61,125 bases of DNA from Chloroflexota bacterium (GTDB lineage Bacteria > Chloroflexota > Anaerolineae > JAAEKA01), in assembly GCA_034717495.1 (NCBI GenBank), contig JAYELL010000114.1:1-61125 (forward strand). The letters are read 5' to 3'. How positions within the stretch are numbered: the first letter of the stretch is position 1; each line of letters begins with the position of its first letter. Of the stretch, positions 16,694 to 33,608 are shown piece after piece. The notes below the pieces were generated by a model that saw nothing but the letters and a program-made list of their open reading frames with translations, searched no databases and had not been told where the DNA came from. Position numbers and translations under genes: made by a program.

Positions 16694-16711
16694 CTGCGTA
16701 ACTCCAGTTAT
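16694..16711 (-). repeat. 18-base element, copy 1 (inverted relative to copy 2)
   Basis: The minus strand reads ATAACTGGAGTTACGCAG, identical to 45323-45340 on the plus strand. It overlaps the last codon of the radical SAM gene. Confidence 0.7.
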
Positions 16712-17889
16712 TGGATGGGAAGTGAGAGCTGGTGAGCCGGTTGACATCCGTCCAGGAGGATGTACGTGGCAGCCTTGTTTGCCCGGACCCCCAATTTCCT
16801 TAGATCCGACAGGGCTCGAAGTCTGGCCTGTCTGCGAGCACGCACGATAGCTGCAGCACCGACCGGGCCGATCCCTGGTACCCTGAGCAGCTGTGACTGA
16901 GACGCATCGTTTATCTCCAGGGGAAAATAATCAGGGTGTGATTCAGCCCAGGCGACTTTAGGATCCGCGTCGATGGGCAGATTGCCCGCCTGGCTAAATG
17001 GAAGTTCACTGGCACTGAATCCGTACTGGCGGATCAGGAAGTCAGCCTGGTACAGACGGTGTTCTCTCAGCGGGAGAGTCGGCGCCACTTCTTCCATGGG
17101 TGTGTCTTCCACAGGGCTGAAGGCCGAGTAGTACGCCCGGCGCAGCCCGACTTGCCGATAGAGCATCTGGCTTGTGAGCAACAGTTCCTGGTCGCTTTCA
17201 CCGGCCGGCCCGACCACAAACTGGGTGGTGGCGCCGGCACTTAACAGCTGCCTTCCCTTGTTTCGTTGATTCCGCACAATCTGCCACGCTCGCTCAAGGG
17301 GTTGGATAAGTCCTTGACGGAAATCTTTTTTGGGGGCCAGGTAGGCCAGACGCTGCTGGTTTGGAGCTTCAAGATTCACAGATAGACGATCAGCCAACTC
17401 TGCCGCTCGTTCAATCTGGGCCTGTTCAGCATCGGGCAATATCTTCAGGTGGATGTATCCTCGCCACTCGTATTTCTGTCGCACCAGCTCAACCGTGGCG
17501 ATCATTCGGTCCATGCTGCGAACCGTGCCAACAATCCCTGAACTCAGGAACAGGCCTTCTACCAGGCCCCTGCGCTGCATCTTGTCAAATGCTGCAGCAA
17601 GCTGTTCTGGTTCAAGGGTTGCCCGTTTCATGGAGCGACCGGCCCGGAAGGGACAGTAATAGCAGTTCTTTTCGCAGGCACTGGTCTGCATGATTCGCAG
17701 CAAGGGCACAGACCTGCCTCCTCGCCCCACAACCGTGGCTACCGACTCGCGCACGTCCGGAATTCTGCTGGAACGCTCAAGTTCGGTCAGAGGTGTTGGT
17801 CGACCGTTGACAGCACAAAGATCATATTGGGCGGCCCGGCCCAATAGGTTAAGCTTTTCTCGAAGATCGGGAGTACTATGTACATGCAT
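16708..17889 (-). CDS. Radical SAM protein with C-terminal helix-hairpin-helix (COG4277-like, putative DNA repair/modification)
   Basis: ATG at 17889 has GAGGAG about nine bases upstream (393 residues). A longer frame up to 17970 would run through the promoter. The cluster-binding motif is CEKNCYYC (Cys72, Cys76, Cys79; CxxxCxxC). The C-terminus carries a helix-hairpin-helix (LLRVPGIGPVGAAAIV, then ALSDLRKLGV), a non-specific DNA-binding element. The family is described as a putative DNA modification/repair radical SAM protein; in many genomes it neighbours a uracil-glycosylase-like gene, which is absent here. Its promoter is consensus and holds a LexA-type box, supporting a DNA-damage role. 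The reaction is unknown. Confidence 0.85.
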   Translation of the reverse strand: MHVHSTPDLREKLNLLGRAAQYDLCAVNGRPTPLTELERSSRIPDVRESVATVVGRGGRSVPLLRIMQTSACEKNCYYCPFRAGRSMKRATLEPEQLAAAFDKMQRRGLVEGLFLSSGIVGTVRSMDRMIATVELVRQKYEWRGYIHLKILPDAEQAQIERAAELADRLSVNLEAPNQQRLAYLAPKKDFRQGLIQPLERAWQIVRNQRNKGRQLLSAGATTQFVVGPAGESDQELLLTSQMLYRQVGLRRAYYSAFSPVEDTPMEEVAPTLPLREHRLYQADFLIRQYGFSASELPFSQAGNLPIDADPKVAWAESHPDYFPLEINDASQSQLLRVPGIGPVGAAAIVRARRQARLRALSDLRKLGVRANKAATYILLDGCQPAHQLSLPIQ

Positions 17890-17938
17890 CGCCGTGGGCT
17901 CCTCTTGAGAGGTCAAGGAACAGGTGTTCTTTGAATCC

Positions 17939-17967
17939 ATTATACGAACAAATGTTCCCGTTGTCAA
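17939..17967 (-). promoter_or_regulatory. Consensus sigma-70 promoter of the radical SAM gene
   Basis: On the minus strand TTGACA (17967-17962), a spacer of exactly 17 bases, and TATAAT (17944-17939). Both hexamers are perfect. The predicted transcript starts about 40 bases before the ATG at 17889. Confidence 0.85.
17945..17958. promoter_or_regulatory. Candidate LexA (SOS) box inside the promoter spacer
   Basis: CGAACAAATGTTCC fits the Gram-positive SOS operator pattern GAAC-N4-GTTC (half sites 17946-17949 and 17954-17957). It lies directly between the -10 and -35 hexamers, where a bound repressor would block RNA polymerase. Confidence 0.7.
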
Positions 17968-18101: not shown

Positions 18102-18689
18102 ATGCCATTAGCAAACCGCGAGGAAGCCTGGAATCTATTGTGCGAATGGGTCGAGTCGGACAGCCTGCGCAAGCACATGGTGGCCGTCGAGGCTGCCATG
18201 CGTGCCTATGCGAATAAGTATGGTGAAGATGAGAACTTATGGGGAATCACCGGGTTGCTGCACGACCTGGATTTCGAACGCTATCCCGACATGAACGACC
18301 CGATCAATGGTCATCCCCGCACGGAACTGCGCCTTTTCCGGGAGTTGGGTTACCCTCCGGAACTCATTCGCGCGGTTGAGGGACACGCTCCCTATCTGGG
18401 CATTCCCCGCACGACGAAAATGGACAGCGCGCTGGTAGCCGTGGACGAACTCACTGGCTTGATCATGGCAGTAGGCTACGTGCGCCCAAGCAAGAACCTT
18501 GGGGATGTACAGGTGAAATCGGTGCGAAAGAAGTGGAAGGATAAGCGGTTTGCTGCCGCTATCGACCGCCAGGAGATCGCCGAGTATACCGCCGAGCTCG
18601 GCGAGGACCTGAATGATCATATTGGTTTCGTGCTGGCAGCCATGCAAGAGGTTGCGGGTGATCTGGGTTTGGACGGGCGAGATCAGTGA
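18102..18689 (+). CDS. HD-domain phosphohydrolase family protein
   Basis: ATG at 18102 gives 195 residues. AAGGAG lies at 18082-18087, slightly far away. The frame is open upstream, but that part overlaps the divergent promoter and does not resemble the family. His25 (LRKHMVAVE), the His54-Asp55 pair (LLHDLDFERYP) and a later GHA form the HD metal site pattern. Small single-domain HD proteins of this size are usually metal-dependent phosphohydrolases for nucleotides or related phosphates; the substrate is unknown. It is followed by three genes with gaps of 15-26 bases, a probable operon. Confidence 0.75.
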   Translation: MPLANREEAWNLLCEWVESDSLRKHMVAVEAAMRAYANKYGEDENLWGITGLLHDLDFERYPDMNDPINGHPRTELRLFRELGYPPELIRAVEGHAPYLGIPRTTKMDSALVAVDELTGLIMAVGYVRPSKNLGDVQVKSVRKKWKDKRFAAAIDRQEIAEYTAELGEDLNDHIGFVLAAMQEVAGDLGLDGRDQ

Positions 18690-18704: not shown

Positions 18705-19145
18705 ATGAGAAGCAGTGAATTCATGCGGTTGGTCGCTCCGGCCGTGCAACAGCATCTTCCCGATGGTCTCACACTGGCCAGAGGCCGCGTGTGGAGTTTC
18801 GGCGCGCAGTTGTACGATGACAATCCCCCCTTCCACTATGAAATAGTTCGCGTTCCCAAGCGGATGGGGGACAGACTGGAACTTGGCTTGCATTTCGAAA
18901 GTCGGAGCCGACAGCACAATGTGACCATGTTGAGTGGGTTTTCGCCCCGCCTGTTGGAAATCAAGGGTGAGCTAGGGGGCGGTTTCGAGGCTGAGCTTTG
19001 GGATCGGGGATGGACCAAGGTCTACGAGACCGTTCCGCTGGAGGCCTACGAGACTGCCTATCTCGATATGGTGGCTCAACGCATGGGCGCAATTATCCGG
19101 GTACTTCATCCGATCTATCGTTCAATGCGCCAACGTGCCAGATGA
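18705..19145 (+). CDS. Conserved-looking protein of unknown function
   Basis: The protein has 146 residues, is soluble, and has no signal peptide or membrane segment. I do not recognise the family. The sequence alternates beta-rich stretches (HYEIVRVPKR, RLELGLHFES) with an amphipathic C-terminal helix rich in Arg. It lies 15 bases after the HD gene and 26 bases before the oxidase-like gene, so it is likely part of the same transcript. No catalytic motif stands out. Confidence 0.65.
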   Translation: MRSSEFMRLVAPAVQQHLPDGLTLARGRVWSFGAQLYDDNPPFHYEIVRVPKRMGDRLELGLHFESRSRQHNVTMLSGFSPRLLEIKGELGGGFEAELWDRGWTKVYETVPLEAYETAYLDMVAQRMGAIIRVLHPIYRSMRQRAR

Positions 19146-20997: not shown

Positions 20998-21026
20998 TTG
21001 ACATATCCAACTTTCCATATTATAAT
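20998..21026 (+). promoter_or_regulatory. Consensus sigma-70 promoter of the gene at 21186
   Basis: TTGACA (20998-21003), 17-base spacer, TATAAT (21021-21026); both hexamers are perfect. It lies 160 bases before the ATG, leaving a leader of about 150 bases in which I see no obvious riboswitch. Confidence 0.8.
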
Positions 21027-33579: not shown

Positions 33580-33608
33580 ATTATAAGGCCTGAACACGCC
33601 CTTGTCAA
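33580..33608 (-). promoter_or_regulatory. Consensus sigma-70 promoter before the second TadE and TadG-like genes
   Basis: On the minus strand TTGACA (33608-33603), a 17-base spacer and TATAAT (33585-33580); both hexamers are perfect. It is 47 bases before the tadE ATG. Confidence 0.8.

Follow-up and report, generated by a model that had tools for sequence, protein, structure and literature searches.

The locus and its promoter

The window analysed here, a stretch of 61,125 nucleotides from a Chloroflexota bacterium (contig C114), carries on its minus strand an intact radical SAM gene (ATG at 17889, stop at 16708). The sequence upstream of this gene reads TTGACA ACGGGAACATTTGTTCG TATAAT from 17967 to 17939, with perfect -35 and -10 elements separated by 17 bp. 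The features of the locus are as follows.

17962-17967, minus strand: -35 element TTGACA (from sequence)
17939-17944, minus strand: -10 element TATAAT, at a 17-bp spacing (from sequence)
17946-17957, minus strand: SOS box 1, GAACATTTGTTC, within the promoter spacer (from sequence; same 12-mer as box 2 of the lexA2 promoter)
17918-17929, minus strand: SOS box 2, GAACACCTGTTC, perfect, covering the predicted transcription start at about 17932 (from sequence)
17900-17906, minus strand: likely ribosome-binding site AAGAGGA (from sequence)
16708-17889, minus strand: radical SAM/helix-hairpin-helix (HhH) protein of 393 aa, divergent TIGR03916 (rSAM_link_UDG, COG4277-type; NCBIfam and Pfam)
17653-17676, minus strand: CxxxCxxC motif (residues 72-79; C72, C76 and C79, the sole invariant cysteines among 15 orthologs)
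16801-16917, minus strand: HhH region (LLRVPGIGPVGAAAI; Pfam HHH_3, E = 1e-5; ComEA chains of the PDB)
18102-18689, plus strand: divergent HD-domain gene with its own promoter-like sequence (same neighbour in close Caldilineales relatives)

The first-pass annotation had described a perfect TTGACA-N17-TATAAT promoter with a GAAC-N4-GTTC SOS box in its spacer, and both were borne out, the palindrome at 17946-17957 being GAACAAATGTTC. It had reported a single operator, however; the box in the spacer is real, but a second had been overlooked. Two GAACN4GTTC palindromes overlap the promoter, box 2 lying exactly 28 bp downstream of box 1. The HD-domain gene is probably outside the system, and a search around the orthologs for conserved operon partners found none in common beyond close relatives. 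A 146-aa reading frame at 18705-19145 of the window (plus strand) gave no match in Pfam or NCBIfam.

The arrangement was compared with 200 dinucleotide shuffles of the window. TTGACA-N17-TATAAT occurs three times in the window and in none of the 200 shuffles, and the same holds for a consensus promoter with a box in its spacer (1 versus 0) and for two boxes 28 bp apart, which are present in the window and absent from its shuffles. The GAACN4GTTC motif alone is not rare in the window (4 strand-hits versus 1.5 expected), and many of its genomic sites fall within genes; its bare genome-wide count was dropped as evidence for being too close to background (73 versus 59 in the reversed control). It is therefore the position of the box, and not the box alone, that beats chance, since the shuffles lack a promoter-embedded box while the lone box is common. 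The two further perfect TTGACA-N17-TATAAT promoters of the window, at 20998-21026 (plus strand) and 33580-33608 (minus strand), are both without an SOS box.

Boxes in the genome and across Chloroflexota

It had been suggested that the same motif be sought upstream of lexA, recA and imuB. Two LexA proteins are encoded in the genome (TIGR00498, 177 and 179 bits, cut-off 111), both of which show Ala-Gly, the GDSM Ser and a Lys, and both lexA genes proved to have GAACN4GTTC in their own promoters. That of lexA2 reads TTGACA-TAGAACAGTTGTTCTGA-TATAAT and is followed by a second box, GAACATTTGTTC, identical to box 1 of the radical SAM gene, while that of lexA1 reads TTGACA-TAGAACGGGCGTTCGTGG-TACAAT, with an 18-bp spacer and a degenerate second box, GAACAGATATTC. 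The double-box pattern GAACN5TTC-N16-GAACN5TTC, which was drawn up after the three promoters had been viewed and so was not blind, occurs in the 5.0-Mb genome at exactly three places, lexA1 (C76), lexA2 (C46) and the radical SAM gene (C114), and what this search adds is the absence of any fourth place. The reversed control gave 0 matches in the whole genome. This three-member class suggests that few genes of the genome are under tighter LexA control than the radical SAM gene. The lexA2 gene (C46:18168-21353) directly precedes an FtsK/SpoIIIE-like ATPase gene, after repeated GC-rich sequence, and may be a mobile-element gene.

For recA the expectation held in part: the promoter of the gene on C63 (TTGACA-ATATAGAACATTCGTGC-TACACT) contains a box with one mismatch, at the same spacer position as in the radical SAM promoter, whereas no box was found at the second recA 5' end of the genome. 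A perfect box lies just downstream of a -10 at uvrB, at an imuA/recA-like gene and, as anticipated for imuB, at an imuB/dinB-like gene; none was found at the canonical DinB/PolIV gene on C1. Because boxes are present in the promoters of lexA1, lexA2, recA, uvrB and the imuA/recA-like and imuB/dinB-like genes, the SOS genes of this genome appear to use the Gram-positive-type motif, with the radical SAM gene in the set. Use of GAACN4GTTC has reportedly been described in Dehalococcoides, another member of the Chloroflexota. The motif is that of Firmicutes and Actinobacteria, and the Bacillus subtilis SOS box GAAC-N4-GTTC is the same palindrome, although the host here is from another phylum (PMC3323433). 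As a separate observation, the two recA 5' ends (contig ends C63, C33 and C107), one with and one without the SOS-like promoter, enter the same core and break at the same base; this could reflect two copies of recA that share an identical core, or it could be an artefact of assembly.

Ortholog loci were drawn from public genomes and from 400 Chloroflexota genomes, giving 87 distinct loci. A strict box is present in the promoter region of 27 of the 87 (28.4 kb of promoter sequence), compared with 4 such boxes over the 383 kb of their other sequence, and 27 of the remaining 60 have a one-mismatch box adjoining a -10 (0.007 expected per locus). Nearly all of the strict loci, including those of Ktedonosporobacter, Ardenticatenia, Aggregatilineales and Caldilineales, keep the order TTGAC, box, TATAAT at near-fixed spacing; the N4 loop varies among orthologs, whereas half-sites and promoter hexamers are conserved. 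In the protein tree, 42 of the 49 loci of the large clade that holds the radical SAM gene have a strict or one-mismatch box; the box is sparse in the lineages outside this main clade, where 26 of 38 loci are without the motif. Of the 87 loci, only that of the window's own genome showed the second box. Judged by sequence comparison, the putative operator embedded in the promoter is conserved at the same promoter position across Chloroflexota. Two orthologs from Anaerolineae genomes (L079 and L089) contain an in-frame stop codon (TAG and TAA, respectively).

The enzyme and the missing glycosylase partner

The protein matches nearly the full NCBIfam model TIGR03916 with an E-value of 2.1e-93, its score of 313.7 bits being under the curated cut-off of 343.5. 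The two protein motifs named by the first-pass annotation were both recovered, the CxxxCxxC motif within a Pfam Radical_SAM domain (E = 7e-11) and the DNA-binding-type HhH as a C-terminal HHH_3 match just below Pfam's cut-off. A single cluster is likely, since only the three CxxxCxxC cysteines are invariant. In the PDB only the HhH match was significant, ComEA being closest, and no significant relative spanning the catalytic half was obtained. The structure model has a moderate pLDDT of 74, low around the cluster motif, so the substrate is unreadable from it; its fold matches are generic radical SAM barrels, and its resemblance to lipoyl and biotin synthases does not extend beyond the barrel. 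Weak sequence matches to ThiH, LipS2, CofG and HydE were returned by the family search.

Radical SAM proteins of COG4277, which form one family with TIGR03916, are widespread; no report of their chemistry was found in the open literature searched. The window protein shares with plasmid-borne members of this family full-length homology (35-46% identity) and the radical SAM plus HhH layout. LexA control has been predicted there too, for the COG1573-COG4277 operon in Bacteroidetes (PMC8565304) and for CAC3343 of Clostridium acetobutylicum (PMC3828012); the former paper also cites such control of COG1573-COG4277 as reported for Verrucomicrobia and Alphaproteobacteria. LexA regulation is therefore not new in kind. 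Spore photoproduct lyase SplB (COG1533) is likewise an SOS-regulated radical SAM DNA-repair enzyme (PMC8565304), but it belongs to a separate radical SAM family, and the family search gave no SplB match for the window protein.

Besides scoring under the family cut-off, the Chloroflexota protein differs from its relatives in its genetic setting. In SOS contexts, a gene-neighbourhood study linked DUF4130 with genes for radical SAM proteins and uracil glycosylases (PMC3765255), and two family members that we checked elsewhere have a UdgX-family gene directly downstream. Here, neither DUF4130 nor TIGR03915 occurs in the genome, whether beside the radical SAM gene or elsewhere. The three UDGs that were considered as partners elsewhere in the genome are unlinked and have no box upstream. 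In the Chloroflexota sample, 0 of 69 genomes with the radical SAM gene have DUF4130, which occurs in 6 genomes of one genus only, none of them with the radical SAM gene. A solo gene with a predicted operator built into its core promoter is the new part of the Chloroflexota version, and this branch separates SOS control from the glycosylase partner. Since SOS control appears to be kept without that partner, the radical SAM protein would have an independent function connected with damage, and the solo gene provides a single-gene system for testing this role.

Proposed regulation and role

We place at roughly 0.88 the probability that the radical SAM gene is under LexA/SOS control via the operator pair. 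The LexA-type regulation proposed at first pass is supported by the boxes at the SOS genes listed above and by the phylum-wide conservation; this comparative evidence is strong, and from here we infer LexA binding and induction. In the undamaged cell, dimers of LexA1 or LexA2 would occupy box 1, between the -35 and the -10, as well as box 2 at the transcription start, thereby keeping RNA polymerase off a strong consensus promoter. Upon DNA damage, RecA filaments would trigger self-cleavage of LexA and the gene would be switched on. The solo TIGR03916/COG4277 enzyme would then generate a 5'-deoxyadenosyl radical at a single [4Fe-4S] cluster to which SAM is bound, with its HhH domain binding DNA, and would most likely reverse or remove a DNA base lesion without a uracil-glycosylase/DUF4130 partner.

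A role of the enzyme in DNA repair is probable, with DNA as the substrate that we infer, and any specific chemistry is put forward at low confidence. More tentatively, the solo LexA-controlled COG4277 branch of Chloroflexota might constitute self-sufficient DNA-lesion repair by direct reversal or base removal, with no uracil glycosylase and distinct from spore photoproduct lyase.

The promoter could also be LexA-controlled while the enzyme modifies a non-DNA target such as a tRNA, a protein or a cofactor, its HhH making RNA or protein contacts only. The weak matches to ThiH, LipS2, CofG and HydE and the closeness of the fold to lipoyl and biotin synthases would fit such a role, but SOS control and the UdgX/DUF4130 operon elsewhere point to DNA, the HhH is nearest to that of ComEA, and the single set of invariant cysteines distinguishes the protein from those sulphur-inserting enzymes that carry a second cluster; we regard this reading as unlikely. 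Less probable still is that the box is bound mainly by a mobile-element regulator, LexA2, which would place the gene in a damage circuit specific to that element and not in the chromosomal SOS regulon. In favour of this reading, lexA2 has both this very 12-mer and the double box at 28-bp spacing, and it adjoins the FtsK/SpoIIIE-like reading frame. Against it, the double box is arranged in the same way at lexA1, and the orthologs that carry the box across the phylum do so in gene neighbourhoods unrelated to one another. That the palindrome arose by chance or is an unrelated operator in an ordinary strong constitutive promoter, as the near-background genome-wide count of the lone motif might suggest, is very improbable given its position within the promoter, the second box at lexA spacing and the phylum-wide conservation.

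Returning to LexA/SOS control in the remainder of the genome, TTGACA-N17-TATAAT followed by GAACATATGTTC was observed at C87:9480, before a glyoxalase-like (VOC) reading frame that lacks a clear start codon and may be an additional or a truncated SOS gene.
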